NCBI GenBank assembly: GCA_014905825.1
Contig: JACGCN010000003.1
Span: 2,108,001 to 2,172,000 of the forward strand
Length of the DNA: 64,000 bases
Direction: 5' to 3'
From: Lyophyllum atratum
Taxonomy: Eukaryota > Basidiomycota > Agaricomycetes > Agaricales > Lyophyllaceae
Positions within the stretch are counted from its first letter, which is position 1. Every line of letters starts with the position of its first letter. Positions 38,037-62,566 of the stretch are shown here, in pieces. Under the pieces are notes generated by a model. The model was not told the DNA's origin, ran no database searches, and was given only the letters and a program-made list of their open reading frames with translations. A program made the translations under genes and the position numbers.

Positions 38037-40577
38037 ATGTTCGGTAAAGGACGACCCCCTCCAGGTCCGAAGATGACAGCTTCGGGAACCTCTTCCCCTT
38101 CTGCTGCTGCCGCTCCTGGCCCTCAGAAGAGAGTATCATCGCGTCTCAACGCTACCCCGGCCCTTTCTGCCGGAGGGTCCGTTGCATCCGCCAAGTCTAC
38201 CCCGGCTCTCGTCGAATTGGATACCAAGGGTAAAGCCAGAGCCGTCCCTGCCGGGAACAGGTCTCCCTCGGTGGAGACCGTCCCGGATCGTGAGGACGCT
38301 CCGACTATGCCCACCCTACTCCTCCAGGGACCGATCTTGGAGGAGGAATCGAACTTCATTCCAGCACCCAAGGAATCTCCCCCTCATTTCGATTTTGGTG
38401 GTCGAGTTCATTCCGAGAAGGCCTACGAGGGTTCAGCGACGAACGATCAAACGTTCCCTGCCCTCTCTTCCATGGTCGCTAGCGCGGCTTCAAGGATCTC
38501 GGATTACATGTCTACCGATGATCGCTCGGTCTCCTCAGCCCCATCGTTAGGTCACCTTCTCGATCCGTCGCCGACTCCCCCTCCCGAGAACCGTCGTATG
38601 CGTCAAGACTCGGACGCTCGCTCGGAGTCTGAGCCTGCGCTGTACAACTCGCATCCTTTCATCTTCGAAGGGTTAGCGAACCTCGGCTCGATAACACTTA
38701 GGAACGAGCCGCTCGAATGCTCGGTCTATAGGTTTCACAAGACCTATGACTCCTCCAAAGACTACGACCCGCTCATGCGCTATGGGGGCGTGGAAGGGAT
38801 ACTCCCAGGTCACAGCAAAAGGGAATCAGATATCGTCCGTAATCTGCTTATACGATGGGAAACCCCACACTATGACTTGAGGTGGGAGAACTTGGAGGCC
38901 GCGGTCAGGAAGTTAGGCCGAACTTCACTATCGGGCAAGGACTTAATCCACTACGAAGGATCGTCCTCTAAATATTCCCTGAATCTGCCTCGACTTGAGG
39001 AGATCGCCCATATTCTTCTTGCTGTCCACCAGATCCTCGACGGCTACGCGGAGTTCCTCAAACTAGGACCCAAAAGAAGATTCAGGCTGGACGTAGGGTT
39101 CCAAGCCCTTCGCTCGTTGGGATGGAACGACCACCGAACCGACATCCTCCTTACCGTTACTACATTCCAGGAGAGGACGATGGTCGCTGTCAAACATATT
39201 CAAGACTTCTTCAAAAGTCTGGATCGAATCTTCAACCGACCTGAAGACCTGGACTCGATCAGTTCCCATGATTCCACTAGGACGTCCATCAGGTCCGCGT
39301 TCGGAACTCGATCTCCTAGAGAAGAGTTGAAACAGCTTCTCGCCCGACTGAATTATCGACTCCCGGTAGACCATCCCCTCGCGGCCGCCCAGCGAACGCT
39401 TCTTGCTGGCGAATTCGAGTACGACGCAGGAGCTATATACCATCACCGTGCTCGTCAAACGCGAGTTACGTCTCTGACGTCTTCGTCAGAAGGAACCCGT
39501 ACCCCTACTGGAGACGGAGGTCGTTATGATGCGAACTCTTCCGTTAACTTCGCTCTAACCGATCCCCCTTCAATTTCGGCGGGACTTAAGGAACGAAACT
39601 TACGATTTCAAATACCGGAATCGGTGTCAACTATAACTAAGAATCACGCCATCACCAACTTGCCGGGCGTAGGCACTATCCTACCGTACGAGCGACAAGA
39701 CTCGGTCTTCTCTGCTCCGGAGGATGAAACCAGATCTGGGGGGCCATTGAAGATACAGCCTCCCGCTTCTCTCGCGACTATGCGCTTCCAGCCAGGAATG
39801 GTGGATCCTCACCGCATTCCCCCACCCACTGCCTGGACTAGTCACTCGTACCAAGCCGCTCCGCATCTGAACAACTCCGGTGGAGGCGGTCCCCCTAGTG
39901 GAGGTTCTTCTGATGGAGGTCCCCCTGGCGGAGGTCCCCCTGGCGGAGGTCCCCCTGGCGGAGGTCCCCCTGGCGGAGGTCCCCCTGGCGGTGGTCCCCC
40001 TGGCGGTGGTCCCCCTGGCGGTGGTCCCCCTGGCGGTGGTCCCCCTGGCGGAGGTCCCCCTGGTGGAGGTCCCCCCGGAGGAGGTCCCCCCGGAGGAGGT
40101 CCCCCTGGCGGAGGTCCCCCTGGCGGAGGTCCCCCTGGAGGAGGTGCTCCTGGCGGAAATCCTGGAGGAGATGTAGTGGCTCCTAACGCCAATCCAAACG
40201 CTGCGAATCACGTCGATGAATGGCAGCTAAACCATAAATTAAACCTCTCCGCCATACCCGTATGGAACGGATTCGGGAACGCCACTATCGACTACCTTAG
40301 CGCCATGAGCAAGCTTGCCGATTTAGGACAAAAAATGCGGGAAAACCTGGCTAAGATGGCTCCTTCGAAATGGTCTCACCGTGCCCTGGCTTGGTGGGAC
40401 GCCTTACCGCCTGCCGATCGCAGATATTTCAGCCAGGATTGGAACATTATGTTGCTCGGCATACGCTCTTTCTTCTTAGACGACAACTGGGTCCGGGAAC
40501 GCACTTTTGAGTTCGAGGAAATGCGTTTCCGACAGAAGGGAGAGGAGAAGGAGTTCCCCGTGGACTTTATTCAATGA
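38037..40577 (+). CDS. Element A Gag, N-terminal part up to an in-frame TGA
   Basis: 846 residues starting MFGKGRPPPGPKMTASG. It has a Ser/Pro-rich N-terminus, a helical central region (about residues 220-470), then a collagen-like run of about 17 five-residue repeats (PPGGG type, 39910-40150, a 15-nt tandem repeat), and a capsid-like helical block (WQLNHKLNLSAIPVWNGFGN, WWDALPP, FEEMRFRQKGEEKEFPVDFI). The frame stops at TGA (40575-40577) in the context CAA TGA CGA and continues open immediately afterwards. The stop separates capsid from the zinc knuckle. It could be a CGA-to-TGA mutation or a leaky stop; the position favours mutation. Confidence 0.85.
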   Translation: MFGKGRPPPGPKMTASGTSSPSAAAAPGPQKRVSSRLNATPALSAGGSVASAKSTPALVELDTKGKARAVPAGNRSPSVETVPDREDAPTMPTLLLQGPILEEESNFIPAPKESPPHFDFGGRVHSEKAYEGSATNDQTFPALSSMVASAASRISDYMSTDDRSVSSAPSLGHLLDPSPTPPPENRRMRQDSDARSESEPALYNSHPFIFEGLANLGSITLRNEPLECSVYRFHKTYDSSKDYDPLMRYGGVEGILPGHSKRESDIVRNLLIRWETPHYDLRWENLEAAVRKLGRTSLSGKDLIHYEGSSSKYSLNLPRLEEIAHILLAVHQILDGYAEFLKLGPKRRFRLDVGFQALRSLGWNDHRTDILLTVTTFQERTMVAVKHIQDFFKSLDRIFNRPEDLDSISSHDSTRTSIRSAFGTRSPREELKQLLARLNYRLPVDHPLAAAQRTLLAGEFEYDAGAIYHHRARQTRVTSLTSSSEGTRTPTGDGGRYDANSSVNFALTDPPSISAGLKERNLRFQIPESVSTITKNHAITNLPGVGTILPYERQDSVFSAPEDETRSGGPLKIQPPASLATMRFQPGMVDPHRIPPPTAWTSHSYQAAPHLNNSGGGGPPSGGSSDGGPPGGGPPGGGPPGGGPPGGGPPGGGPPGGGPPGGGPPGGGPPGGGPPGGGPPGGGPPGGGPPGGGPPGGGPPGGGAPGGNPGGDVVAPNANPNAANHVDEWQLNHKLNLSAIPVWNGFGNATIDYLSAMSKLADLGQKMRENLAKMAPSKWSHRALAWWDALPPADRRYFSQDWNIMLLGIRSFFLDDNWVRERTFEFEEMRFRQKGEEKEFPVDFIQ

Positions 40578-47784: not shown

Positions 47785-49173
47785 ATGAGCGCGTTAGACT
47801 CACGTAAATTCTCGACCGCCCGACTTCCCAGTTACGCCGGCTACGAGGACCAGCCAGTGATTGACCATCGCTTCCCTTTCCACCGAGTAGAAGCTCCTCG
47901 TTTCGACCAACTCTGCGGCCGGATAGTTCATACTCGACCTTATGCCCCGCGATACCTGTTATGGTCCTTCAATTCCCGACAAACTCCGTTCTTCCCGGGT
48001 ACTTCCGCTGAGGTAGTCTCTCTTCGTCCGGACGATGAGGTGTCTCATCGCCGCTTCGATGGACATCTCGGGCGATTCGACCCGACCGTCTCGCCGCAGT
48101 ACCTCAGCGAGAAGGTCTGGAGAGGTTTTATTCTGCGACCCACGATCGGATTTGCAAAACGCGAAACGCTACCAGAGTTCGAGCGAATCTACAAAGTCTG
48201 GGACTCCGCCATCAGTCGACTCAAGCCGAAATACGTGGAGGCGATGGTGAAACGCGCAGAGCTGTTGGCCACTGCTATCAACGCACGGGCCCGCCTGCAA
48301 AATTCCTTCACCAATTACTGGGATAGTCGACCGACCCTGCCCACAGTAGATCAAGTCCGGTCACTGGGAAATTGCTCGACTTACGAGGAAGCGGTTGACC
48401 TATGCGCTGAAGTGCAGCGAGGGATGAAGGAACAGTCCGCTTGGCTCGAGTTCGTCGAACGGCTGCGGGAGAATTGGGTGTCGGCGAAGGCGCGCCTGAA
48501 AACGGAAGGTGTGCTCCCCGCCCACGATGACTTTATTGGCGTTTGGATCAATGGAAACCGGGAAGACGACACCCTATGGCTAATGAGTCATGGAGTCCCT
48601 TGCTTCATCATTCACGAGCTCGCGCCTCTAGACGCATGGGTATGGTCCACCTCCCGCGACACTCGAAAATCGTGGGTAGTAGGTACCGAGGCCGACTTGT
48701 TGCGCAAGACGGAATATGACTCAATCGCCTTAGCCAATGGATCGGTAGCTGCCCCTTTTGTGGCGCCTAGACCTCACCCCGCCGTACCATCCCTAGGGGG
48801 CACAGAGTTCACTGCCTCGCCCATAGCGCTTGGATGGATATCTGATCAAACTGGATACACCTCGCATCGAGGCCCATCTACCTCGTGCCAGGTACCCGAT
48901 CGAGAAGTTACTCCCGTGGCGGACCCTGAGGAGTGGCCTCCTCTGTGTCCTACTCTCGCAGCCCCTGAGCCCCTAGCGGTCTGCTTGTACGAAGGACGCG
49001 TCGCTTGGATTAAACCGCCTCCCGTCCATAGCACCCGAAACCAGAAGGGTGGCTGGACTAAGTTTCTCGACGATGGAGAAGGGCACTTCGTGAAGATCAC
49101 CAGTACCAACGACGTCGACTCCGATGATGAAGGGCACGTCATTTACGACCGGCATCTTCGCCGCGAGCTGTAC
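47785..49173 (+). CDS. Element A third ORF, N-terminal 463 codons (split by element B)
   Basis: Begins MSALDSRKFSTARLPSYAGY. The first 320 residues look globular, with a hydrophobic core block WLMSHGVPCFIIHELAPLDA and many Trp and Arg residues; the rest is a Pro/acid-rich linker (TSTNDVDSDDEGHVIYDRHL). No reverse transcriptase, integrase, protease or envelope (no signal peptide or membrane helix) features are seen. It is interrupted after CTGTAC (49173) by element B and resumes in frame at 60677 (TEEKIPVLPG). Joined length is 1,092 residues with no stop, so it was intact and presumably selected before B arrived. Function unknown. Confidence 0.8.
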
Positions 49174-49359
49174 TGTAAGGGCCCCGCCCTTACTGGGCGT
49201 TGTTTGGCTTGTTTGGCGACACCTTCGGTGTCGTCTATAACAGGCCTGTAGTAAACATGTACAAACTAGACACTTGTAACCTCACGCATACGTAGCAAAT
49301 ACCAAGACTGGTCAAGCTTACGTAGCGTGAACTGCAAGACCCCCCGTAGCCACGCTACA
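49174..49359 (+). repeat. Element B 5' LTR
   Basis: 186 bp, starts TGTAAGGGCC and ends CCACGCTACA. It contains a short hairpin (GCGACACC TTC GGTGTCGT, about 49217-49235). No difference from the 3' LTR was found by reading, indicating very recent insertion. Confidence 0.95.
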
Positions 49360-49457
49360 TTTTTTTAAGCTATCCAGCTTAGAAGCTACGACGCGACCTA
49401 CGGCCGAACCCGCGACGCGATTTACCATCACGTCACCCAAAGAAGCAACGAGACCAC
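49360..49457 (+). promoter_or_regulatory. Element B leader without a recognisable tRNA primer site
   Basis: The LTR is followed by a T-run and a small hairpin (AAGCT ATCC AGCTT, about 49367-49380) instead of the expected TGG-initial primer-binding site. The 98-nt leader then runs to the Gag ATG at 49458. The priming mechanism is unclear: self-priming or an internal tRNA fragment are possibilities. Confidence 0.6.
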
Positions 49458-52400
49458 ATGGCGACGAATCCGGAACCCGACCCGACCACAGGTCCATCAA
49501 CAACCACACCCACGCAACAGGGTGCGACGCCGGTGACGCCCCCTCCGCTACTCGAAGCGGAGAGGCCACTGCGAACGTCACGACTAAAACAAGAAGACAC
49601 GGGTCCGGAAGAAGGGTCGTTGGCTAGGCCAACGACCTCAGCGCAACCGTCTCGTCCCGGAACGAGTCGGCCGAGGCACCCGGCATTGGAAACGATGCGA
49701 AGACAAGCATCGCAAGGGCGAACGCTAGCGCAGGAACTAGCAGACGCCTCTCAAGCCGGTGGTTCAGGAGGCAGAATACGTCTACCTCCTGTCAATATTG
49801 CCAGCCCGGCAATGCGACTAGGATCATTAGGACCAGCTCAAGGAGGTACCAGACCCTCCTTCGGCAACTTTTCGAGCGACGACGGCGACCATGGGGGTAC
49901 ACGACCCTCCCATGGCTTTCTAACTCCAGACCCGTTGGGCCTAGAGTCCTCGGATGGAGAGTTCGACGTACTCGAGGCCGACAGGCAGCTCGAACGCGAA
50001 CAGAGCAGGCTAGACGCCTTTTGGCAGGCTATCGGCATGGACAGTATCCGCCGAAGGGAACGACTGCAGGAGTGCGCCCAAAAGCTTCTATCCGTGAAGC
50101 ATGGGGTGACTCCCGCGAACAGCACTCGCGAGCAGTACTTCGAGAGGATGCTCGAAATCTTGCCTAGGGTTATCTACTTGTACAAGCAGAAGTACCCTAC
50201 GGGAACTTCGTCTATAGCATCATCAGTAATAAATTCGCCTGCTCCCTCCACTATCCGTCCGTTAGATAAAGGAAAGCAACGGGTGGAGCCAGTGACTCCA
50301 CAGGCCGTAGCGCAAGAGATGAGACAGCCCATAGACGAACGGGCTGTCGCAGTATCGATCATGCATCAGTCGCGCCGACCTGATGAAAGCACCAGCGAAT
50401 ACAAACGGCGCGAGCATGCAGCTCGACGTGAAAAGCGAGTACGCCACTCGGTGACAATCGACTCGCGCGTACCACGAACTAGCGACTCGTCGTATGAACC
50501 ACCGACGATCGCCAATTTAAAATATGAATCGTATAGTAGTTCGGATGAGAATGACGGCGACGCTGTCATTCAAATCCCACCAAAGAAGCGAAAGGCGCAT
50601 TTACCGGAGAAACTACTCCCCGATAGCGTACCTATCGCTGATACTTTCGATGATCGAGTTTCGTATCAACGCTTACGAATCGCCGATATCAAAAATGGGC
50701 AGAAATCCATATACTCGGACCAGGGAATCGTGTTCGAAGGGCGACAGCCCATAGACGACATGAAGCGACAGTGGGCTAGCAGAACGCAGACCCACAAGTC
50801 AGCACGCGGACAAAGCATAGCTCCCGTGCATCAAGAAGAGTATGCTGAACCCCGTCGATCGACGTCAGCATACACGCAATCAACTGCCAATGGCAGGGGA
50901 TTTTCGATGCCCGCACCGAATAGGCGAACCGCCGATATAGCGGACGGGATACAGCAGAATGAGGAGCGCTATCGCGCACTCATTCATGAACGCATCAGCA
51001 AATTGATCTTCATGCGTTTGGGAACACGGCTACACCTACCCGAAGGGTTAAAGCCTCGACGAACCGATTCAAAATCGGTTGGAACTTATTCCGGCAGTCC
51101 GAAGTTCCAAGAGCTAGAGACCTGGCTTCACAGCCTGGTCTTATTAATGGCAGTATCCAGACTAGGCGGTCCTGACCTCGAACAGGAACGTGTAATCATG
51201 GTACTAGAGTTCTTGGATGGCAAAGCCAAACGATGGTTCGTGCGGCATGTCATCCATGTCAACCGAACTCAAGAAGAGTGGAAGTTCGAAGAGGTTATAT
51301 TCGGTCTATATGATCGATTTATCCTACCGTCGACCATGCAAGACGCGCGTGACGAGTTCAACGCCGTCTCATATAAACAGCATGCCGACGTTCAAGACTT
51401 GTTCGACACCCTTGTCGATCATTCACAGAATATGGCCGTTAAGGTTACGGACTGGATGTTCTGTGACCGATTCGTGTCAGCAATGTCGACGGATATGCGC
51501 AATCATCTATTCGATGAAGGATTGTCGCCTGAAGTCAACACAGCCGAGGAATTCTTAGCGCTTGCTAAAGCCTATGAATCTGCTAAGAAGACGGCTAAAT
51601 ACTATGACAAGTCGGCTAGTGTAACTCGACAGCGGTACACTACGCCTTCCAGAGAAAGTCAGGAGCATCGCGAAGGTGCTCCTAGGAAAGCCTTTGTACG
51701 ACGTGGCGACTACAAGAAAGGATTATTCCGATCTAGTCGACCAACGCCGTTCAAGAAGCGAGACGATTATCGCAAGGATAATAAGGTGGACACGAAACCA
51801 CCTTACAAGTCCAACGATAGTAAGCCAGGCTATCAGCCGATGGCTAAGATGGATAAACCAGGCCATCAGAAAACCGCAGGTGGATCTAAATGTTTCAACT
51901 GCGGACGAACTGGTCACTTCGCGAAGGAGTGTCCAGATCCGAAGAAGCAGCAGCGGGCACACATGCGCGCTATGCGAACGGCTGTAGACGGAACCGAAGG
52001 CGAGTCGGATGACGACGACTCGGAATCTGCGCACGATGCAGATGCCGAAGACGATGAAGTCGATCGTCCTGAGTCCGAACTGGGCGAACATGATGACGAT
52101 ATGATTGAAGTCGAAGTCTACGATTACGACGAGTCAGACTCTGAGCATATGCACGGAATCTGGGAAGGATCGCCGACCGATAGCGATGCGTCACAACCGG
52201 AAATTGCGGATCGAGTCTTTGGAATTTCGGAGGCACCGCCGCCGAAAGACAAGAAGACGAATGACAAAGACAAGGTCATTCGAATGCGAAAGGTCCAATT
52301 ACACGCAGGAAAGAATAAGATACAACGACCTGTCTACCCTGCGGAGACCAAAGAATGTCTGGCTACCTACACCAACGTAGGTGGACAAGAGGCATGGACG

Positions 52401-52775
52401 TTATGGGATACCGGTAGTTCTACTACTGGTATGACACCTGCATTCGCGCAGGTGTCGAAGATAAAAGTGTACCCATTGGAGAACCCGATGATCCTGCAAC
52501 TGGGAACAACGGGTAGCCGCGCGTCGGTCATTTACGGTACCGAAGTGCAGATTGAAACGGCAGGGTTCAAAGGGCCAGTATACATGGACCTGGCGAACTT
52601 TGACCGATATGATGTAATTATTGGCACACCATTTATGCATGCCAATAACGTCATCCTGGACTTCAAGAACCACCAAGTGGTAGTCAATGGAGTCGCGACG
52701 CCAGCTGTGCGCGTGGCGTTAGAAGATACGGACGGCCGAGCTCGTCGGTATCGATCCATTGAGAAGCGCGAGTGA
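49458..52775 (+). CDS. Element B Gag and protease
   Basis: 1,105 residues. A disordered Thr/Pro-rich N-terminus is followed by a retrotransposon-Gag capsid domain (about residues 537-714: FQELETWLHSLVLLMAVSRL, WFVRHVIHVN, DLFDTLVDHSQ). Next is a CCHC zinc knuckle CFNCGRTGHFAKEC (about residue 811), then an Asp/Glu-rich stretch (51995-52145) and an aspartic protease with LWDTGSSTTGM (Asp codon 52407-52409) and YDVIIGTPFMHANN. It ends EKRE followed by TGA (52773-52775); the same frame stays open beyond the stop into pol. Confidence 0.93.
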   Translation: MATNPEPDPTTGPSTTTPTQQGATPVTPPPLLEAERPLRTSRLKQEDTGPEEGSLARPTTSAQPSRPGTSRPRHPALETMRRQASQGRTLAQELADASQAGGSGGRIRLPPVNIASPAMRLGSLGPAQGGTRPSFGNFSSDDGDHGGTRPSHGFLTPDPLGLESSDGEFDVLEADRQLEREQSRLDAFWQAIGMDSIRRRERLQECAQKLLSVKHGVTPANSTREQYFERMLEILPRVIYLYKQKYPTGTSSIASSVINSPAPSTIRPLDKGKQRVEPVTPQAVAQEMRQPIDERAVAVSIMHQSRRPDESTSEYKRREHAARREKRVRHSVTIDSRVPRTSDSSYEPPTIANLKYESYSSSDENDGDAVIQIPPKKRKAHLPEKLLPDSVPIADTFDDRVSYQRLRIADIKNGQKSIYSDQGIVFEGRQPIDDMKRQWASRTQTHKSARGQSIAPVHQEEYAEPRRSTSAYTQSTANGRGFSMPAPNRRTADIADGIQQNEERYRALIHERISKLIFMRLGTRLHLPEGLKPRRTDSKSVGTYSGSPKFQELETWLHSLVLLMAVSRLGGPDLEQERVIMVLEFLDGKAKRWFVRHVIHVNRTQEEWKFEEVIFGLYDRFILPSTMQDARDEFNAVSYKQHADVQDLFDTLVDHSQNMAVKVTDWMFCDRFVSAMSTDMRNHLFDEGLSPEVNTAEEFLALAKAYESAKKTAKYYDKSASVTRQRYTTPSRESQEHREGAPRKAFVRRGDYKKGLFRSSRPTPFKKRDDYRKDNKVDTKPPYKSNDSKPGYQPMAKMDKPGHQKTAGGSKCFNCGRTGHFAKECPDPKKQQRAHMRAMRTAVDGTEGESDDDDSESAHDADAEDDEVDRPESELGEHDDDMIEVEVYDYDESDSEHMHGIWEGSPTDSDASQPEIADRVFGISEAPPPKDKKTNDKDKVIRMRKVQLHAGKNKIQRPVYPAETKECLATYTNVGGQEAWTLWDTGSSTTGMTPAFAQVSKIKVYPLENPMILQLGTTGSRASVIYGTEVQIETAGFKGPVYMDLANFDRYDVIIGTPFMHANNVILDFKNHQVVVNGVATPAVRVALEDTDGRARRYRSIEKRE

Positions 52776-55700
52776 CTCCATGGCCCGGAAGAAGGATACG
52801 GAGGCTCTATACGAAAAGCCACCGTAGTCGATGATGACGAGCCAAGCACAGAGGGTCTCGCCATTAACAGTTTACCAAAGGACCATGGGGCCCTTTTGTT
52901 ATCGGAAGAAGAGTTTCAGGAAACTCTGAAAGGGGGGAATCCGGCATTACCCCCTAAAGAAACGAATAAGAAATCAGCGAAAAAGGAAGAGCGCCGATCG
53001 AAGGGGCTCAACCAACAAAAACAGGAACATCTACAACGAAAACCGAAAATCAAAAGGAAGTCAGATGAAGCACAACCAGTGGCGTCATCAAGCAAAGTGA
53101 CCTTGGATACGGTACCCGAACCGTCTTCAAGCGTGTTACGCGATCGCCTCAAAGAGATGATCGACGAAGACTTAGAAAACCAGGACGAAAAGTCACAGCA
53201 GAATACTGAGAAGAGTACGCGGTCCTTCTGGGACAGACCAACACCAAATCCACATTACGAGTGGATGTATGATCACCGCATGCCCGCGGAATGGAACGAA
53301 GTAGTCGCATCCATGAGGGCCTACGAAGGACAGCATAAGCAGCGGCCTGGAGAAGTTTATCGGAAGCCCGAACCCGATGAAATCTCCGAGGTTATGGACT
53401 TCACTGAAGCCAAACCGAAGCAGCCTTATGTGCGACCGAAGTATCGATTACCAGTGCGCGATGAAGGGGACTTTAGTCTTCATAAATTGCGTGCTCGGTT
53501 CGATATAGATTCGACGAAACGGGCCGAAGCATCTATTCGAGCTGCTCATACCTTACGGAAAGGCAAAGGAAAAGCTGACGATAGTCGTCTATCCGAAGAA
53601 GACTATCCTAGGCTCAGACAACAATGGCACGATGAATTTGAAGACATGGTCAGCGGTACGAAGCCGACCTTACCACCATGGCGAGAGGTTAATCACGAGA
53701 TTAACCTCATTGATGAATCAAAACAATATCAATACCATGCTCCAAGATGCCCCATGTCTCTTCGTGATGAATTTCATGCGAAGATCAATAGATATGTGGA
53801 TGCTGGGTGGTGGGAACATCGGCCAGTGAAACAAGCAGCCCCGCTGCTATGTATTTCGAAGAAAGATGGATCTCTACGTACGCCGCTCGATGCGCGGCAA
53901 CGTAACGACAATACCATAAAGGATGTTACACCTCTACCCGATCAAGAGGTCATCCGTGAAGATGTCGCCCGAGGAAAAATCCGCTCAAAAATCGATTTGA
54001 CGGATGCCTATGAGCAAGTTCGTGTACTGCTAAAAGACGTATGGAAAACGGCGTTCGCAACGATCGTCGGGACATACGTCAGCAATATCATGCAAATTGG
54101 AGACTGCAATGCTCCTGCGACGTTTCAAAGATTGATGACATCGATCTTTCGAGATGTTATTGGCAAATTTATGCACGTCTACCTTGACGACATATTCATC
54201 TTTTCGGAAACTATTGAGGAACACGAGCAACATCTCCGAGTTATCTTCGAACGACTCAGAGAATACTCGTTGTATCTAAAGTGGAAGAAATGTGAATTAT
54301 ACTCAGACCGAGTTGATTGCCTTGGTCATATAATCGACGACCAAGGTATCCATCCCGATGCCGACAAGCTAGCGCGCATCCGGGACTGGAGAACACCTCG
54401 GAATTACAACGACATTCAGAGGTTTGTAGGACTCGTGAATTATCTGAGCAGTTTTCTGCCAGATATTTCCGCCTACACTGGACCCCTTATGTCCATCACG
54501 CAGAACGGGTCTTCATTCTATTGGAGACCTATTCATCAGCGATGTTTTGAAATGATCAAGCGCATCTGCTGCAAAACACCGATCATTCAACCCATCAAGC
54601 CGAAGAACGACATACCGATTTGGGTGATATGCGATGCATCCAAATCAGGTGTCGGCGCCATGTACGGACAAGGGCCGACGTGGCTTGAATGCCGACCCGC
54701 TGGATTTATGTCCAAGAAATTTACCAGCGCTCAGCAGAATTACGCGGTACACGAACGCGAAACTCTGGCGATACTGGAATCCTTGATGAAATGGGAGGAC
54801 AAACTTGTGGGATATAAGATCCACATTATTACCGACCATAAAGCCTTGGAGTTCTTCCGAACTCAAGGAAATCTTACTCCACGTCAACGGAGATGGATTG
54901 ACTACATGGCTAGATTCAACTTCGACATTACCTACGTCAAAGGCGACTTGAATAAAGTGGCTGATTGCTTGTCTCGCTATTTCGAAAGCGATACAGCTAA
55001 TGATGTACATGATATACATGACTATGTGAATGTCGATGCCCGAATCGACCCTACTGGAGAAGATCTACCACCTCCACGATATAAAGAAGTCGTGGACAAA
55101 GTAGTTGAAATGCGTTCTATGCACGAAGCCCAACTTCGGCGTAGTAAACGCTTCCAAGAGCAGCAAGAAGATCGCGACTTAGAAGCGCAGATTATGAATG
55201 AAGCTACTCCTGGAGCGTCCCAACGACATAATGAACCGTCAATACGCGAGGGTTCAGTCAACATAGACGCAAGCGAGAACATGACTCTGGGAGAAGCACT
55301 TATGGGCAAGGCTACCGCGGCTTCTCCACCAGACTTAGTCGACACATCCTTTCGTAATCGTATTGCGAAGGGGTATGATGAAGATAAACTCTTCAACTAT
55401 ATTAAAGAAAAGCCTGAACGATATAAGCACTTCAATATGAAGAACGACCTTATATGGACTAAGAATCTCGCGGGCGAATCCGTTTTGTGTGTACCCCGTA
55501 TACCGGAACTGACTACGTCCATCATTGAACAAGCGCATCAGACGCTTGGGCACTTCGGAGACCAACGTACGTCCGAGTACGTTCGTCGATGGTATTGGTG
55601 GCCAAGCATGTCCAGAGACGTGCGAGAGTTCTGTCGAACATGCCAATCATGTCATGTTACGAAGACATCAAACCAGAAACCCTCGGGACAGCTCCACTCG

Positions 55701-56822
55701 CTGCCCGTACCAACAAAACCTTGGGACTCGATAGGAATGGACTTCGTTGGACCATTTCCGGAGTCTAAAGGCTTTAACTATCTATGGGTTATAATTTGTC
55801 GGATGACCAGCATGGTGCATCTGTTACCTGTAACTACGAAGAACACCGCGGCTGAACTTTCATGGATTTACCTTCGTGAAATAGTAAGATTGCATGGCCT
55901 ACCGAGCTCGATCGTTAGTGATCGTGATTCGAAGTTCACCTCTCGATGGTGGCGCGAACTCCACAAGATGATGGGTACAAAGCTACTCATGTCTACGTCC
56001 TTCCATCCTCAGACGGATGGTCAGACCGAACGCGCTAATAGGAATGTGGCCCAGATCTTTCGAGCCGTGGTACGACACGATCAGAAAGACTGGGTTGATC
56101 GCGTTCCGATGAGCGAATTTGCGATCAACGCTAGCATATCGGCCACGACGAAGTTTGCACCGTTTGAACTTAACGGTGGATATATGCCGTCAATGATAAA
56201 GGAGATTCGCTCCGATGAAGTGCTACCTAAAGGAATCAAAGCTTATGCCGAACAAGCTCTGAGGAATTTAGCAGAGGCACATGATAATATTATTGAAGCT
56301 CGCGTCTTTCAGACAGCGTATGCAAATACGAAGCGAGCTGCAGAACCGCAAATTAAGAAAGGGGACTTGGTTTACCTATCAACCAAGAACCTCAATTTGC
56401 CAAAAGGACGTGCAAGGAAGTTATGTCCCAAATACGTTGGGCCGTATAAAGTGTTGAATGCTATTCCGGCAAAGTCTACATATACATTGGAGTTGCCGAC
56501 AGCCTTACAGGCGCGGCGGATACATCCTACGTTCCATGTGTCATTACTACGGCCTTATAATGCTAGTAATGATGCGCTATTTCCCAATAGGGCTCAACCG
56601 GAGCCCTATGATTTTGGTGCTCCCAACGACCAAGAATGGTTCGTTGATGAAATCTTGGGTCACCGATGGACCGAAGATAAGAAATTAGAGTACGAAGTCA
56701 GGTGGAGTCTGGGAGACACCACCTGGGAACCTCATGATGGGTGCAAGAACCTTGAGGCCTTAGGCCGGTACCTTGAACTGCAAGGTGTCAAGACGCCGCG
56801 GGGACTCGCGAAACGCAAATGA
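52776..56822 (+). CDS. Element B Pol: reverse transcriptase, RNase H, integrase, chromodomain
   Basis: Continues the Gag frame directly after one TGA, so expression as a fusion would need stop-codon readthrough (context GAG TGA CTC). Reverse transcriptase: CISKKDGSLRTPLDARQRN and YLDDIFIFSE (about 54181). The usual VVDYR motif is replaced by TPLDARQRN. RNase H: VICDASKSGVGAMYG and IITDHKALEFF. Integrase: zinc finger with CRTCQSCHVTK, core GMDFVGPFPES, VSDRDSKF and HPQTDGQTERANR. A chromodomain (WFVDEILGHRWTEDKKLEYE, VRWSLGDTTWEPHDG) closes the protein at about 56637-56790. An acidic and Lys-rich N-terminal extension of about 300 residues precedes RT. Catalytic residues intact. Confidence 0.93.
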   Translation, partial: LHGPEEGYGGSIRKATVVDDDEPSTEGLAINSLPKDHGALLLSEEEFQETLKGGNPALPPKETNKKSAKKEERRSKGLNQQKQEHLQRKPKIKRKSDEAQPVASSSKVTLDTVPEPSSSVLRDRLKEMIDEDLENQDEKSQQNTEKSTRSFWDRPTPNPHYEWMYDHRMPAEWNEVVASMRAYEGQHKQRPGEVYRKPEPDEISEVMDFTEAKPKQPYVRPKYRLPVRDEGDFSLHKLRARFDIDSTKRAEASIRAAHTLRKGKGKADDSRLSEEDYPRLRQQWHDEFEDMVSGTKPTLPPWREVNHEINLIDESKQYQYHAPRCPMSLRDEFHAKINRYVDAGWWEHRPVKQAAPLLCISKKDGSLRTPLDARQRNDNTIKDVTPLPDQEVIREDVARGKIRSKIDLTDAYEQVRVLLKDVWKTAFATIVGTYVSNIMQIGDCNAPATFQRLMTSIFRDVIGKFMHVYLDDIFIFSETIEEHEQHLRVIFERLREYSLYLKWKKCELYSDRVDCLGHIIDDQGIHPDADKLARIRDWRTPRNYNDIQRFVGLVNYLSSFLPDISAYTGPLMSITQNGSSFYWRPIHQRCFEMIKRICCKTPIIQPIKPKNDIPIWVICDASKSGVGAMYGQGPTWLECRPAGFMSKKFTSAQQNYAVHERETLAILESLMKWEDKLVGYKIHIITDHKALEFFRTQGNLTPRQRRWIDYMARFNFDITYVKGDLNKVADCLSRYFESDTANDVHDIHDYVNVDARIDPTGEDLPPPRYKEVVDKVVEMRSMHEAQLRRSKRFQEQQEDRDLEAQIMNEATPGASQRHNEPSIREGSVNIDASENMTLGEALMGKATAASPPDLVDTSFRNRIAKGYDEDKLFNYIKEKPERYKHFNMKNDLIWTKNLAGESVLCVPRIPELTTSIIEQAHQTLGHFGDQRTSEYVRRWYWWPSMSRDVREFCRTCQSCHVTKTSNQKPSGQLHSLPVPTKPWDSIGMDFVGPFPESKGFNYLWVIICRMTSMVHLLPVTTKNTAAELSWIYLREIVRLHGLPSSIVSDRDSKFTSRWWRELHKMMGTKLLMSTSFHPQTDGQTERANRNVAQIFRAVVRHDQKDWVDRVPMSEFAINASISATTKFAPFELNGGYMPSMIKEIRSDEVLPKGIKAYAEQALRNLAEAHDNIIEARVFQTAYANTKRAAEPQIKKGDLVYLSTKNLNLPKGRARKLCPKYVGPYKVLNAIPAKSTYTLELPTALQARRIHPTFHVSLLRPYNASNDALFPNRAQPEPYDFGAPNDQEWFVDEILGHRWTEDKKLEYEVRWSLGDTTWEPHDGCKNLEALGRYLELQGVKTPRGLAKRK

Positions 56823-56967
56823 ACGCGTCGCGGTCATGTGCGTGTCACGTGAAGCATCAATTGTTGAGATCAGTGATGGCGCCCGCAAACCATAAATCGG
56901 TTAAGTCCTCTTTCGCTCGACACCCACAGTCGACACGTAGCACACCCATCCGATCCACCTCGATCCA
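56823..56967 (+). other. Element B spacer between Pol and third ORF
   Basis: 145 nt with no open frame of note. Unlike element A, no hairpin array is evident here. How the third ORF is translated (reinitiation, splicing, internal entry) cannot be seen. Confidence 0.5.
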
Positions 56968-57297
56968 ATGGAACAAGACGGAACCAACCAGCAAGAGCAG
57001 AACCCGAACGCCTGGGGCCCACACGGTGGCTCCAGCGCAGCATCAGGCTCGGGAACGAGCCTTATGGGGGGAGAAGGGGCTCAGGGCCGTGTTTTCCCAG
57101 AAAACACGGCGCAACAGCCACCTGTCCAACCCGCCAACGCGTACGCCCCATACGGGCAATATCAAAATCCGAACCAAATGCAGATGCCGACGGCTGGTTT
57201 CATGAACCAGCCGTACATGCAACAACCGATGGGCGGATACGGTCACCCGCATATGACCTATCTTCCCCAGCCGATGTACTTCCAACCACATCCACAA

Positions 57298-57337
<40 letters not shown>

Positions 57338-60087
57338 TCATGGGGCAGCCGCCCTATAACCAACCTCAGAACACCGGATTTTCAGGGAATCCGGTGCCTT
57401 ACCAGCAACCTGGGCAGGACTGGCACGCGCAGCCGGCCCTGCACTCAACTCAAGGAACATGGCCAGCGCAGCCGACCGACCGAATGGACGACACCCCGGA
57501 TCAGGGACGCCAGGGATCGCTACCGGAGCGTCCCATGGCCCCGATACCACCAGCACCGGTGCCTCGAGGGGATATTCCTCCCCCTCAAAGAAAAGGACGT
57601 GAGGACGACCGCACGGCGTCGTCCTCCTCCAAAACATCAAACAGGGAAACACTCATTCGAGACGCCGCTCTCGAACGGGTATTCCGACGACTTGAGCGCG
57701 CCGGATTTGCATCCGATATGGTGCAGTTCCTACGAAACGATGACGGAACGGCGCAGGTCGTCGTTGGGATGCTCCTCGATGACCTATTGGAAGCACGCGA
57801 ACGCGTGACCGAGCTCGAGCGCAGACTCGCTCGGCAGGAGTCCCTAGACTATGGGCGCGCCTCACACGAGCAGGCAGGCCCTAGTAGGAAAAGATTGGCG
57901 ATGTCTTCTCCGGATCGCGGAGGAGAATCTGCATATCGCCCACCGAAACGTCAAGAAGTTGAGAGCCTCGACCAAGCGAGGAGATCACACTTCGATGACC
58001 GACGACCATACGAGCGTCGCGGTTATCCAGAGCTTCCGTACGATGAGCGACGGCGTCCACGAGACGCGCGTCGAGATGGTCCAGGACGGTCTGATCGGCC
58101 TGTAGGCCCGGAGCCTACAAGGCGCGGACGGCAGCCATCCCCACTAGCGATGGATAGGCAACCGTCTGCATCGGAATCAGCGGACGTCCAGAGTACGTCT
58201 GGGGCATCTGCGACGCCCCAGACAAAACTATCCGATGTTCCTCCTCCACCTGAGCCAAGGGTACAGGTCCCGAATCGTAGAGGTGTCCAAGAGACCATAA
58301 CGATTCGTATCCCTGCGGTCGCGGTACGGCCACCGGCTCCTACACAGCAACCGCCATCGCCACCCCGGCATCAGTACAAACCAACTGGGGACACCGATTA
58401 TGGCGAGTCCTCAGGCGGTTCCGATGACGAGGACAAGTTGACCTCTCGTCAACGAGAAGACCGGGATCGCAAACGCGAAGAGAAAGCGGCAGAGCGTCGC
58501 CGCTTAGCTCAGCTCGAACGACCGGGACGCATCCCTGACAACGTCGGGGTTGTGTTCCGCGAGAACCGATGGGAGAGGGATAATTCATTCCTCGGCATGT
58601 TAGATTATAATATCTATCATTCTCCCTACAGCAATCGTGTGTACGCGGCGCACGAAGCTGCGGCCGCGTCACGATTTGAACTAGCGAACAATCGGGAGTA
58701 CGTCCCCCAAGGACGACTCTACAGCTTGTTACCACGAGGATTCCCCATGAATCCCCGCCAATTGAATCAATTGGTCAACCTCGTGCAGTTCCCGAAGAAG
58801 AACTTCCCCCGAGAAGATCGCCTGCAGGCGTATAAACTGCTGAAGGAATTCCTCCGCCTAGCATTGTGCCTACACTCGAGTTGGCACGATGCTACGTTGA
58901 ATGCGGCATGGGAAAATCCTGATATCCCGCGCCTTGACAATCCATTCCCCAAGGACGCGAGGTTGAACTCATTCCCTCCTGTTGAACGCCCAGCTGGCGT
59001 TCTCAAGACCAAATCGCGCAAGTCTGGCCATGGTGCCGGATTGCCGCCTCCGACGAGCGACGAGGCGTTCAATATTGAACGTTGGGCTCAGCAGGTCGCC
59101 CACCATGGGCGACCTGGCTCAGTTAATTCCTTCTCCGGCATCGCCATCGATTATGCGATGCGCGTTTACTACCCATCGATTTTTGGGTTTCGATTACTGT
59201 CTGTACTACTGCCGTCCGCGACGGCAGATGTACAATGGTTCACACGAATCTTCCTGGGCATACTAGCCCGACCCGGATTGTATGCTGAGGCCGTAGCGTC
59301 ATACTACGACGCACATCCGGATCGTCCTCATAGGACAATCACGGCCCTCCCAGGAGAAACAGTGACTGTGAATCGGTTCGTTCGACCAGACGGTGTCGAA
59401 CGCCTTACCGACTTACATGTGCTAGAGCACATGATTAATGTTGGAATACCCATCGCATGGGTAAACCATTCATATGCTTACGCCAACCGTTGGTGGGAGC
59501 ACCACTACCCTTACAACGCACAAGGTGGTCCTCCCTTACTAGAATTCTTCCGAACGATTGATGACCAACGTATCGAGCGTCTCCATCGTCTCGGGGTGCC
59601 CCAGACCATACCCGAATGGTCTGGATGGCGCCATCCAACCCAAGCCGACATTACGCGCATCCAAGCGCTAATGCGGCATGAATTTGATACACAATCTATT
59701 GACTGCTTTTCAAGTCGTCAATGGGTACGTGTTGGGGCTGACCCCCTATTTACCCTACTGCCGCGACGTGAAGATTACACCGCGGCACAACGCAACATGA
59801 TTGGGTCAACGTCATCCGTTAACGACGTTGCAATGACACCCGTCGACAACCCTGCCCTCCCTCCAGCGACTTCGACCACAGTCGCAGGGACTACTTCAGT
59901 CCCTGAAACCATTGTGGATCCCGCGACGGACCTTAATGGGCCCCTCGCGTCTGCGGTTACCACAACCAGCCCTGGTACGGACGGAACACGTCCGCCCTAC
60001 CAGGAGTCGACGCAAGGATCAACAAGCATGGAGGTCATACCAAATCCGACCGATGACATGCTTGAGGATACCGCGATGAAGGAGTGA
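56968..60087 (+). CDS. Element B third ORF, unknown protein
   Basis: 1,039 residues starting MEQDGTNQQEQNPNAWGPHG. In order: Gln/Pro/Gly/Met-rich prion-like region with a polyglutamine run (about residues 110-126); helical, probably coiled-coil segment (RETLIRDAALERVFRRLERA to ERVTELERRLARQ, about 228-290); Arg/Asp/Pro-rich linker; charged helix (LTSRQREDRDRKREEKAAER); then a 410-residue globular domain (about 521-937) rich in Trp, Tyr, His and Leu, containing FRENRWERDNSFLGMLDYNI, YSLLPRGFPMNPRQLNQLVN and LEHMINVGIPIAWVNHSYAY. A Thr/Pro tail follows. No membrane helix, so not an envelope. Complete and uninterrupted, implying a role in the element's cycle. The coding sequence is dense in perfect hairpins. 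Confidence 0.85.
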
Positions 60088-60485
60088 AAGTACGGGTAGG
60101 CGACCGACGGTTTAACCGTCATTGCGGTCCTCACTGACCCAGTCATGGCGCTGCGCCTATCGATACTCGAATCGATGGGCTTTTTTGGACATTATCGACT
60201 CATGCCCAAGGATTACTCGAACTATCCTTGGGTTTCTTGTCAGTACATAAGGACGACGGGTCCTCACTTCATGCTACGATCAATATGCCATACTGATCGT
60301 ATACTTTACTTTACAAAGTTACCGACTATACGCAGTCGGTACACTTTCAGAACCATGCCTAGGACGACGGGTCCTAGGCCCCATATATCATCAACTAGTT
60401 AGTGTATAAGTCTGTCCTACAGACTAATACACGTATATCTATATCCTCTCTGGAAGATTGCTGCACGCAATCTTAAAGGGGGGTA
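60088..60485 (+). promoter_or_regulatory. Element B 3' hairpin array and polypurine tract
   Basis: Between the third ORF stop and the 3' LTR almost every base belongs to a stem-loop. Stems include 60106-60120, 60133-60143, 60155-60180 (10 bp with a wobble), 60205-60232 (9 bp), 60250-60264, 60275-60301 (8 bp), 60320-60341 (8 bp), 60357-60379 (9 bp), 60403-60432 (two-tier, about 13 bp) and 60454-60474 (8 bp). Two hairpins share the loop GACGG and stem AGGAC/GTCCT; two share ACTCGA in the loop. The array ends at a polypurine tract AAAGGGGGG (60475-60483), the expected plus-strand primer. Confidence 0.85.
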
Positions 60486-60671
60486 TGTAAGGGCCCCGCC
60501 CTTACTGGGCGTTGTTTGGCTTGTTTGGCGACACCTTCGGTGTCGTCTATAACAGGCCTGTAGTAAACATGTACAAACTAGACACTTGTAACCTCACGCA
60601 TACGTAGCAAATACCAAGACTGGTCAAGCTTACGTAGCGTGAACTGCAAGACCCCCCGTAGCCACGCTACA
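60486..60671 (+). repeat. Element B 3' LTR
   Basis: 186 bp, the same sequence as 49174-49359 as far as reading shows. Followed by the second copy of the TGTAC target duplication (60672-60676). Confidence 0.95.
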
Positions 60672-60676
60672 TGTAC

Positions 60677-62566
60677 ACCGAGGAGAAGATACCTGTACTT
60701 CCGGGCCTAGTATCCCGCACTGACGTATACGGGTGGCCCGCGCCCCGAGCGACCTTTTGGGAGAAGATCGGACAGGGGAAGGTACAACAAGTTGCCTCCT
60801 CCTCCTGGGTTTACGGATCGGCCTACCCTAAGAAAGGCATCGCCCCGCGGCGTGAACCGACCCCCCCGCCCGCGGACAAACTGCCTCTCCTGAGTATTGC
60901 CACGCCTATTGTCTCGACAGCAAACGCGATGCCGCAGGGCTCTTCCTCAGTAGATGACGCTGAGATGCAGAGCCCGCCTCGTGGGTCTGCTGATCAGGAC
61001 GCTGTGATGGCGAGTCCGCCCAAGCCGACTCGCCCCGCATCCCCAGGCTCGGAGTCATCAGGGTCTGTGAAGCTTTCATGGGGTATGTCCGACGACGAAG
61101 ACGATACATGGACAGCGGGAGCTCAAGCGGCTGCGCCCAGTCCGTTAGCGAAGGCATATCTTCGGTCAGGAGATTTTGCCCCTAACGTGCCGTGGACGGA
61201 GCTGCGCGACGCGTTACTCGAGATCGCGAAGAGTCACCCGGAGATTCATATCGTGGACTGCGTTCAATCCAGTACGATGTACCGCCAAACGGTGTGGGTG
61301 TCGCTCACCAGTCAAGAGGGAGCTGAATTACTTCGCTCCTTGTTCCAACAATTGCCCGCTCCCCCTAGGGGTGCTACAGATTTGGTCCCGGTCGAGGCCG
61401 AACAGTTCGTGCAGGCACAGAAGGCGGCGGGAGCTTCGACAACAGCCTCTCCGTCCCCTTCCCGGGCTTCAGCCTCTGCCGCGTCTCTACACCCATCCGC
61501 AACGCCTGTTTGTCAGCGCTCACCTTCACCTGCTCGTCGACGCTCTCCTCGTCGGCGCTCTCCATCGCCGGTTCGTACTATCTCCCCTCCTCGCTCGCGC
61601 CCTATGCCCAGCCCCACGCGTCCGTCATCTACGTCCTCTTCCCCGTTGCGGCGTCGTCGGAACCCTAGTCGCCGCGTGGGCCCCACATATCTACCTCGTC
61701 GTCAGCATTATTCCCCTCCGGCTAGGCGGATGTCTGAGCTACCTAGTTGGGAAGCGCGTTCTCGACGTGGGCCTCCCTCTCGGGAAAGGTCTCCTCGTCG
61801 GTCTGTTCACATGTCTCCCCGTCGACGATCCCCGACTCCTCTTCGTTGGGGTCGAGGACGTTCCCGCAGTCCTCGCAGGAGCCGTGGTCGCTCCCCTAGA
61901 TCCTACGATCTGAGCTACGGCCGTCGGGGCTCTGGCGTCCGTTCTTCCCGCTCTCGCTCGCCTCGGTCTCGGGTCAGCTCTCTCAGCTCTCGGTCGACCT
62001 CATCCCGTTCTGCCAGCCCTCGCCGAACACCCTCGAGGTCGGAAGGCCCGACACCGTCTGCTGCGTCTGAGCTCGCGCCGCCCCCCTCGGTGTCGTCCCT
62101 TTCCGTGGAGGATCTGGCAAACCTCCACCGGTTGACCACCGTGCTTCTAGCGCAGTATGGTCACCCCACCCCAAGCCCCGCCCTCGGTGATCGTCTCACG
62201 CATCCCCCTCCACCGCTGGACGCGCGCCTCTCTAACCCGTTACCCTTGGCTGAACGCCTTCTTGCCGCGCCCGTTCCTCCTCCTGCCCCTGCGCCGCCCC
62301 CCCTGATTAGGCGCATGCAGGTTACTTTAGGCGAGCGCGTAGGCGACATCATGATGGGCCCAGCGGTTGCGGATGCGTCCTCAAGTGAGGCCCCTGCTAG
62401 CGAAGGTGCGGGTGTAGTGCCCAACCCTTCCCAGCGGCGACGGCCCAGACGTAACAAGCGTCAACGCGTCGCCATGAAGAAGCGCGAAGGTGTCTGGGAC
62501 TACACGAGAGCTTCCGGTTCTGGCAATCCGGGGGGCGATGACAGCGATGAAGAGTACGCGGGTTGA
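60677..62566 (+). CDS. Element A third ORF, C-terminal 629 codons with Arg/Ser-rich region
   Basis: Continues in frame from 49173. It begins TEEKIPVLPGLVSRTDVYGW, then has a disordered Ser/Pro/acid region and a short folded-looking block (VPWTELRDALLEIAKSHPEI, HIVDCVQSSTMYRQTVWVSL; 61180-61310). A long Arg/Ser/Pro tract (about 61500-62060) has many SPRR, RSRSP and SRSP units, like SR splicing factors. After a helix (SVEDLANLHRLTTVLLAQYG) comes a Pro-rich part with a basic motif (QRRRPRRNKRQR) and the end DDSDEEYAG. SR tracts usually bind RNA or splicing factors and are phosphorylated; a role in RNA handling or nuclear entry is inference. Confidence 0.8.
   Translation, partial: TEEKIPVLPGLVSRTDVYGWPAPRATFWEKIGQGKVQQVASSSWVYGSAYPKKGIAPRREPTPPPADKLPLLSIATPIVSTANAMPQGSSSVDDAEMQSPPRGSADQDAVMASPPKPTRPASPGSESSGSVKLSWGMSDDEDDTWTAGAQAAAPSPLAKAYLRSGDFAPNVPWTELRDALLEIAKSHPEIHIVDCVQSSTMYRQTVWVSLTSQEGAELLRSLFQQLPAPPRGATDLVPVEAEQFVQAQKAAGASTTASPSPSRASASAASLHPSATPVCQRSPSPARRRSPRRRSPSPVRTISPPRSRPMPSPTRPSSTSSSPLRRRRNPSRRVGPTYLPRRQHYSPPARRMSELPSWEARSRRGPPSRERSPRRSVHMSPRRRSPTPLRWGRGRSRSPRRSRGRSPRSYDLSYGRRGSGVRSSRSRSPRSRVSSLSSRSTSSRSASPRRTPSRSEGPTPSAASELAPPPSVSSLSVEDLANLHRLTTVLLAQYGHPTPSPALGDRLTHPPPPLDARLSNPLPLAERLLAAPVPPPAPAPPPLIRRMQVTLGERVGDIMMGPAVADASSSEAPASEGAGVVPNPSQRRRPRRNKRQRVAMKKREGVWDYTRASGSGNPGGDDSDEEYAG

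Follow-up and report, generated by a model that had tools for sequence, protein, structure and literature searches.

The question raised by element B, a Ty3/gypsy long terminal repeat (LTR) retrotransposon with identical LTRs (49174..60671, plus strand), is why its sequence is so densely filled with short perfect hairpins. The element lies within a 64,000-nucleotide window of the 64.8-Mb genome of the fungus Lyophyllum atratum (contig JACGCN010000003.1, positions 2,108,001 to 2,172,000), and all coordinates given here are those of this window. A prediction made earlier from the sequence alone, hereafter the original prediction, held that hairpins saturate the element, including its coding sequence, that synonymous positions are tuned to pair, and that the pattern resembles the genome-scale ordered RNA structure (GORS) of some RNA viruses. 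Our analysis indicates that the small Ty3/gypsy clade of element B probably keeps its whole transcript folded into consecutive short local hairpins, which is a property of the GORS type. We favor this reading because the stems exceed both codon and dinucleotide controls, because the excess is spread over coding, untranslated, and LTR sequence, because it is present in three of four families and more weakly in the fourth, and because the stems are maintained in family B.

Perfect stems of 7 bp or more number 65 in element B. When only those of 9 bp or more with loops of 3 to 10 nt are counted, the whole window has 15, with 13 located in element B versus 2 in the other 52.5 kb. All 11 of the 9- to 11-bp stems that had been named are present where they were placed. 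Nine have the length claimed and two are 1 bp longer (10 bp at 53685-53708 and 11 bp at 59092-59116), and the earlier list lacked two further stems of at least 9 bp with loops in this range (56587-56609 and 57190-57214). Among the six shorter stems named, those starting at 59209, 59416, and 59885 are exact, two were misplaced by one base (the real stems are at 51062-51080 and 52910-52927), and no hairpin exists at 54332-54358, where the nearest is at 54320-54346.

These counts were compared with 60 synonymous-codon shuffles and 40 dinucleotide-plus-codon shuffles of each open reading frame (ORF), using stems of at least 7 bp with loops of 3 to 15 nt. The gag ORF has 17 such stems versus 2.2 in codon shuffles and 2.1 in dinucleotide-plus-codon shuffles (largest shuffle, 5). 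The corresponding values are 11 versus 2.6 and 2.9 for pol (largest, 6), where both real and shuffled stems were counted on 52896-56822, and 23 versus 3.2 and 4.2 for ORF3 (largest, 8). Preserving codons and dinucleotides therefore accounts for about one sixth of the stems of element B, and the large excess over codon-preserving shuffles in all three ORFs supports the proposal that synonymous positions are tuned to pair. Six of the eight control ORFs in the window show no excess, and the other two equal their own largest shuffle. One of these is the C-terminal part of gag in element A, also located in the window (4 stems versus 1.4), and the other is the ORF at 47785-49251 (3 versus 0.9), whose reading frame enters the LTR of element B and gains two hairpins there.

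An explanation by chance, base composition, or coding constraint can appeal to the general point that local G+C content and codon bias raise stem counts, and element B has 47 to 57% G+C. However, shuffles that retain codons and dinucleotides yield one quarter to one eighth of the stems of at least 7 bp, and no clear excess is evident in six of the eight control ORFs or in four distant gypsy ORFs described below. We consider chance and composition to be ruled out by these shuffles, and the probability left to this explanation is negligible.

The hairpins are as widespread as had been proposed, with all three ORFs, the 3′ untranslated region, and the LTRs lying above controls. Stem density peaks in the 398-bp 3′ untranslated region, where six perfect hairpins of 7 to 9 bp are arranged in a row (60205..60474, plus strand). 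At 57086..57110 (plus strand), an 11-bp stem encloses a loop of 3 nt. Each LTR holds two stems; an 8-bp hairpin is located at the LTR start (49175..49193, plus strand), and a GTAGC / GCTAC hairpin was read from the LTR ends (49346..49358, plus strand). This LTR 3′-end hairpin varies in a matched way between the four families introduced below, being GTAGC/GCTAC in B, GTAAC/GTTAC in S1 and S3, and GTAGCG/CGCTAC in S2. No stems were found in the 97 bp before gag or in the 145 bp between pol and ORF3. Sorted by loop length, the excess covers loops of about 3 to 17 nt in B and S1 and 1 to 8 nt in S2; it is weaker in B for loops of 18 to 25 nt and no longer evident past about 40 nt. Repeated insertion of a single palindrome was also considered as an origin and was ruled out, as the listed arms are unlike one another by eye.

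Folding energies were evaluated on two scales. In 60-nt windows, z-scores relative to shuffles preserving codons and dinucleotides are strongly negative for element B (gag −14.1, pol −13.1, ORF3 −10.1) and weak or positive for two element A ORFs (−1.8 and −2.7) and two host ORFs (+1.2 and +2.6). With 240-nt windows, 93 of 94 in element B fall under the shuffled energy, versus 39 of 99 in host sequence. The minimum folding energy difference (MFED), computed in 350-nt windows against dinucleotide shuffles, is 22.6% for element B. All 64 windows are more stable than their shuffled versions, with single windows ranging from 3% to 51%, and the predicted structure is thus spread over the entire element.

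The MFED of element B far exceeds the 3% threshold given for GORS (PMC3950689), and element A, at 4.3% (40 of 53 windows), is slightly over it. Among values quoted in PMC7642675 are about 15% for SARS-CoV-2, 7.5 to 10.7% for hepatitis C virus (HCV), 12.5% for human pegivirus (HPgV), and 23.4% for the highest coronavirus, so that element B is over SARS-CoV-2 and close to the top coronavirus value quoted, although our window step and shuffle number differ from those in the GORS papers. Betacoronaviruses range from 8.6 to 17.5%, and the strength of structure differs between relatives (PMC7642675, PMC3950689). As described in these sources for coronaviruses, HPgV, HCV, and caliciviruses, element B has a whole-genome energy excess over dinucleotide-shuffled controls together with many consecutive stem-loops. 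The proposed likeness to GORS holds for both the magnitude of the MFED and its spread over the whole element.

The genome holds seven copies of element B with an intact pol frame, plus older or broken copies. It also holds three sister families, named S1, S2, and S3, with protein identities of about 70% in pol and 35 to 50% in gag and ORF3. We analyzed the seven B copies (with L008 added for ORF3), three of four S1 copies, four of six S2 copies (three in tests of variation), and all three S3 copies. S1 and S2 have a stem excess like that of B, except that L040, which is part of a broken S2 copy, has less. Their z-scores per 60 nt range from −7.4 to −15.2, and those of S3 from −6.4 to −8.2; MFED values are 19.8% for S1, 22.5% for S2, and 12.0% for S3. 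Family S3 is poor in perfect stems (27 stems of at least 6 bp in 8.0 kb for L031 versus 20.4 expected), yet it still folds more stably than shuffles. Since S3 is nearest S1 in gag and ORF3 by protein identity, a comparison made without a tree, its perfect stems were probably lost. In one S3 copy (L031 and L032), short-loop perfect stems are missing and stems with loops of 18 to 60 nt are mildly in excess, because of which S3 folding may be of longer range.

Beyond these families, four gypsy ORF stretches at about 35 to 45% identity show no clear stem excess, and their z-scores are −3.4 for L041 and −1.2 to +0.9 for the other three. As far as tested, the hairpin property is particular to this clade and is shared neither by the genome as a whole nor by gypsy elements in general. 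Stem density is kept in S1 and S2, and more weakly in S3, as the positions of pairs turn over. Coronavirus GORS is described as behaving likewise, with pair positions poorly conserved between relatives (PMC7642675, PMC3950689). The likeness must be qualified in two respects, because sister families carry most of their stems at different positions and because S3 is poor in perfect stems.

Within family B, the stems are maintained. Pairwise comparison of six B copies gives a difference rate at third codon positions of 0.0270 in stem arms versus 0.0490 when the annotation is shifted, and none of 400 shifts is as low; loops differ at 0.0623 versus 0.0491 for the shifted annotation. The original prediction had made stem conservation in related copies a point on which it could fail, and in B the arms change at half the background rate with some compensatory changes. 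When 66 of the 74 derived substitutions of the C76 clade, polarized with L008, are placed on the B_win copy, the number of stems of at least 7 bp rises from 26 to 29, whereas random placement preserving the base changes gives 21.5 and reaches 29 in 0 of 200 trials. Similarly, the 91 ORF3 differences from B_win to B_C88 yield 27 stems versus 18.4 when placed at random with synonymous class kept (0 of 200). This class-preserving test was applied to 18 comparisons (nine B, six S1, and three S3), again counting stems of at least 7 bp. All nine B comparisons lie above the random mean, and in six of them no more than 8 of 200 random placements attain the observed number. Four of the six S1 comparisons also lie above it, three of them with no more than 11 of 200. 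Substitutions that survive in family B tend to keep or build hairpins.

Some hairpins also carry matched changes. Inside B, four compensatory pairs pass a strict count, and a matched double change in ORF3 converts TGCCGCGG/CCGCGGCA to TGCCACGG/CCGTGGCA. Across the four families, the hairpin in the ORF3 tail (59885..59905, plus strand) covaries, with 92.5% of cells paired, five of eight pairs changed on both sides, and 13 double-changed cells (0 of 500 shuffles). The hairpin upstream of the 3′ polypurine tract is 100% paired with five double-changed cells (0 of 500 shuffles), and a hairpin in pol is 100% paired with four (4 of 500 shuffles). These three hairpins were picked post hoc, from the stem list and from the flank of the polypurine tract, and the rows compared are 6 to 9 related copies. 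Stem positions mostly differ between families, and common positions are above chance yet a minority: B and S1 have in common 6 of the 51 ORF stems of B (about 0.6 expected), and S1 and S2 have 5 of 54 (0.7 expected).

These patterns bear on a mutational origin, in which template switching during reverse transcription rewrites one arm from the other and thereby perfects stems without benefit. The idea draws on stems that are Watson-Crick and local, on mismatches that look neutral in type and have no strand preference, on positions that mostly turn over between families, and on one stem gained in the C76 clade that has, by eye, an adjacent two-base change in one arm. However, unbiased correction should make about half of the repaired changes matched double changes. 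The B arms are short of about half of the expected single differences, yet by our estimate there are 17 double Watson-Crick pair-cells versus 376 single ones. Where stems were gained or lengthened, the altered arm was sometimes the 5′ and sometimes the 3′ one, and in at least one case (alignment column 2832) both arms changed. Furthermore, the pol arms of B keep codon positions 1 and 2 at least as well as background (0.74 to 1.00 in six arm-by-family comparisons versus 0.73 to 0.85); in S2 pol, these positions are not kept in arms as they are in B pol. The shortfall of double changes and the gains in either arm disfavor template-switch correction as the sole cause. Hairpin perfection by reverse transcriptase, which the original prediction had listed as an alternative, is thus quite unlikely, with some room left for it by mismatches that show no clear G-U preference.

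Several results weigh against the reading that the folded state is maintained by selection. The reduced change in arms has the same direction in S1 but is weaker (19 of 400 shifts are as low), and it is not significant in S2 (78 of 400). If every stem that is perfect in at least one copy is included, variation in arms is no lower than in background (93 of 1,185 sites versus 579 variants in 8,862 sites); this is expected because stems broken in other copies are then counted, but it still provides no support. In the placement test, the real count is attained by no more than 11 of 200 random placements in just six of nine comparisons for B and three of six for S1. Two of those for S1 lack any gain, and all three S3 comparisons are indistinguishable from random. 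Global covariation between families was not found for the stems of B, S1, and S2: pairs changed on both sides are Watson-Crick in 122 of 357 cases in gag (34%), 57 of 156 in pol (37%), and 174 of 414 in ORF3 (42%), where the chance level is about one third. Between-family pairing as a whole is near chance level. In addition, the copies are related, so the pair counts are not independent.

The remaining contrary points concern the strand that folds. Because perfect stems pair on either strand, mismatches must decide. Near-perfect stems of B, S1, and S2 contain 41 G-U versus 59 A-C mismatches, where shuffles give 12.7 versus 16.0. Unique variants in B arms comprise 29 G-U, 28 A-C, and 28 other changes. 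Predicted folds contain fewer G-U pairs than shuffles on both strands in all 12 ORFs, and if G-U pairs are forbidden, the two strands score nearly equal. Simple selection on sense RNA with free use of G-U pairs, under which G-U mismatches should be favored, is therefore unsupported, as the mismatches show no clear G-U preference.

A rival reading of these data is that the folded molecule that matters is the single-stranded minus-strand complementary DNA (cDNA), or RNA and cDNA together, for example to protect the cDNA or to steer reverse transcription, with RNA folding as a by-product. A plus-strand A-C mismatch is a G-T pair on the minus strand, and in B, S1, and S2 such mismatches equal or outnumber those of the G-U type (in S2, 31 A-C versus 18 G-U at a minimum of 7 pairs). 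The similar strand scores without G-U pairs agree with this reading, as do the hairpin modules described below, which sit at polypurine tracts. However, the MFED of element B is higher on the plus strand (22.6%) than on the minus strand (15.7%). On the minus strand, allowing G-U pairs gains less energy than it does in shuffles in 10 of 12 ORFs. On the plus strand this holds for 7 of 12, and the average gain there is about that of shuffles. Variants in B arms that occur in at least two copies are the sole class leaning toward G-U (18 G-U, 11 A-C, and 8 other), where those in one copy are 9 G-U, 10 A-C, and 17 other, and near-perfect stems in S3 show the opposite balance to the other families (9 G-U versus 6 A-C). 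The strand results conflict, and the sense RNA is more likely to be the target than cDNA or both. We consider a primary role for cDNA folding unlikely.

A minority of hairpins occupy fixed places near G-runs. The plus strand of element B has exactly three runs of at least six G residues (at 52932, 57066, and 60478), and each has a perfect hairpin 3 to 4 nt upstream. The module in pol consists of the hairpin AGAGTTTC-AG-GAAACTCT followed by GAAAGGGGGG (52910..52937, plus strand) and is a candidate internal polypurine tract present in all four families. A second candidate lies at the start of ORF3, where the hairpin AGGCTC-GGGAAC-GAGCCT is followed by TATGGGGGG (57045..57071, plus strand). The 3′ polypurine tract itself, 2 nt before the 3′ LTR, combines AAGATTGC-TGCAC-GCAATCTT with AAAGGGGGG (60454..60483, plus strand), and its hairpin is retained in all four families with compensatory changes. 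Internal copies of the 3′ motif, each a hairpin followed by a G-run, lie in pol in every one of the four families and at the start of ORF3 in B, S1, and S2. Runs of at least five G residues directly follow a hairpin in three of four cases on the plus strand of B and in one of eight on its minus strand, versus none of 89 on both strands of the remaining window. In one-copy pieces, the values are 3 of 8 for S1 and 3 of 4 for S2, at the same three places as in B, and 3 of 5 for S3, two of these being the pol and 3′ sites.

Polypurine tracts act during reverse transcription. The internal modules are candidate extra start sites for plus-strand DNA, and the fixed hairpins at the 3′ polypurine tract and the two internal G-runs look like individual control elements that are probably tied to plus-strand priming. 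The lentiviral central polypurine tract is likewise an internal copy of the 3′ motif in pol, but element B differs in having two internal copies, each with an upstream hairpin. It is conceivable, if doubtful, that Watson-Crick hairpins across the whole genome of the clade form a code serving both of its single-stranded forms, genomic RNA and minus-strand cDNA, and that repeated hairpin-polypurine modules mark several plus-strand starts. If true, such a both-strand code would be the equivalent of GORS in a retroelement without being tuned solely to RNA, and S3, with its few perfect stems, would serve as a natural control.

Hairpins along the entire element might also form an array of packaging or assembly signals bound by Gag or by the ORF3 protein. 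ORF3 encodes 1,039 amino acids (56968..60087, plus strand) without a Pfam match at an E value of 0.01, is kept in all four families, and has an arginine-rich middle; the last two features count in favor of such an array. The listed loops have no common motif or tetraloop class by eye, loop sequences differ between copies, and S3 retains Gag and ORF3 despite its few perfect stems, all of which make such an array very unlikely. The conserved C-terminal part of the ORF3 protein contains motifs such as RGFPMNP and HHGR. A region search recovered homologs from Hypsizygus marmoreus and Tricholomella constricta and two further records (5 matches among 8,000 scored candidates), and a search with the whole protein found no match among 7,999 scored candidates. 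The ORF3 sequence of S3_C97 is identical to the deposited protein FPV67DRAFT_1666937 of L. atratum (Lyophyllaceae). A search of viral contigs, with a tool that may leave out the genome of the window itself, found no pol relative.

Returning to the preferred reading of a transcript kept folded along its length, selection would act on the folded state of the whole genomic RNA rather than on most single hairpins, and positions could turn over while density stays because only the overall state would be selected. At 7 to 13 bp, the stems fall below the length needed for processing as long duplexes. By leaving few long single-stranded stretches and forming no long duplexes, folding would most likely protect the RNA against silencing or degradation by the host. 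Short stems would leave few open target sites, and by analogy RNA silencing may be the nearest fungal equivalent of viral-RNA recognition. Compaction of the RNA for packaging is a second candidate purpose. In the GORS papers, folding in itself is argued to protect the RNA of viruses against recognition (PMC3950689, PMC7642675).

The remaining features of element B are those of a Ty3/gypsy retrotransposon. The 5′ and 3′ LTRs (49174..49359 and 60486..60671, plus strand) are 186 bp long, have TG...CA ends, and are the same in sequence; the raw repeat spans 187 bp, as it takes in one base of the target duplication. The 5-bp duplication TGTAC was read from both flanks (49169..49173, plus strand, and 60672-60676). 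The gag-protease ORF (49458..52775, plus strand) carries a zinc knuckle and a retroviral aspartyl protease by Pfam, and the pol frame (52776..56822, plus strand), open throughout, encodes reverse transcriptase, RNase H, and integrase, in the domain order of this group. The zf-CCHC, RVP_2, RVT_1, RT_RNaseH, Integrase_H2C2, and rve domains all score over their own Pfam cutoffs, and a C-terminal chromodomain of the integrase is a weak match (PF00385, E value of 6.1e-4, 20.1 bits) under the cutoff of 25.1. Because gag and pol share one frame split by TGA CTN in all four families (52773..52778, plus strand; TGA CTC in B and TGA CTC, TGA CTG, and TGA CTA in sisters), pol is probably made by programmed stop-codon readthrough. 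UGA-CUA is a readthrough motif.

The usual tRNA primer site is not evident, since no TGG start follows the 5′ LTR in any of the four families, and the first 101 nt after the LTR of B have no pairing match of at least 8 nt with the LTR itself. At 49360-49385, just 3′ of the 5′ LTR, all four families carry TTTTTTTAAGC...GCTT and a small hairpin. The insertion of B apparently split one host ORF (47785-49173 and 60677-62566), which reads ...RRELY up to the left edge of the element and resumes with TEEKIPVL... on the right. In element A, the gag region at 40002-40181 contains a 15-bp tandem repeat whose encoded units are rich in glycine and proline.

Two kinds of retroelement structure described previously are instructive for comparison. 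The RNAs of yeast Ty1 and Ty3 have been mapped by selective 2′-hydroxyl acylation analyzed by primer extension (SHAPE), and they resemble element B in that the genomic RNA of an LTR retrotransposon is structured in coding regions (PMC11381356). Their stable low-reactivity regions make up as much as 30% of the RNA, and the main text of that paper does not contain the word covariation (PMC11381356). Folding of maize transposable element transcripts has likewise revealed local microRNA-like hairpins, but these correlate with small RNAs and methylation (PMC10760457) and thus look costly to the element. The stems of element B differ in being short and apparently kept by selection. Unlike the viruses with GORS, element B is a fungal LTR retrotransposon with a DNA stage, and its signal resides largely in perfect Watson-Crick stems of 7 to 11 bp without a clear G-U preference. 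Among the best matches listed in a search of open-licence full text, judged by title and the start of the abstract, we found no report of GORS in an LTR retrotransposon. Our best reading is that genome-scale ordered structure, known for RNA viruses, is here present in an LTR retrotransposon, with no earlier report found among the open-licence matches listed.

In RNA viruses, genome-wide RNA structure has been tied to persistence, chiefly by way of evading the innate sensors of animals. A fungal host has no interferon. Therefore, if true, a value near the top of the quoted GORS range in a fungal retrotransposon would mean that the property is broader than an explanation based on animal innate sensors. 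Four sister families with unequal perfect pairing in one genome would permit side-by-side comparison of transcript level, small RNAs, and structure. Likewise, the polypurine-tract hairpins would provide a concrete and testable link between structure and reverse transcription.

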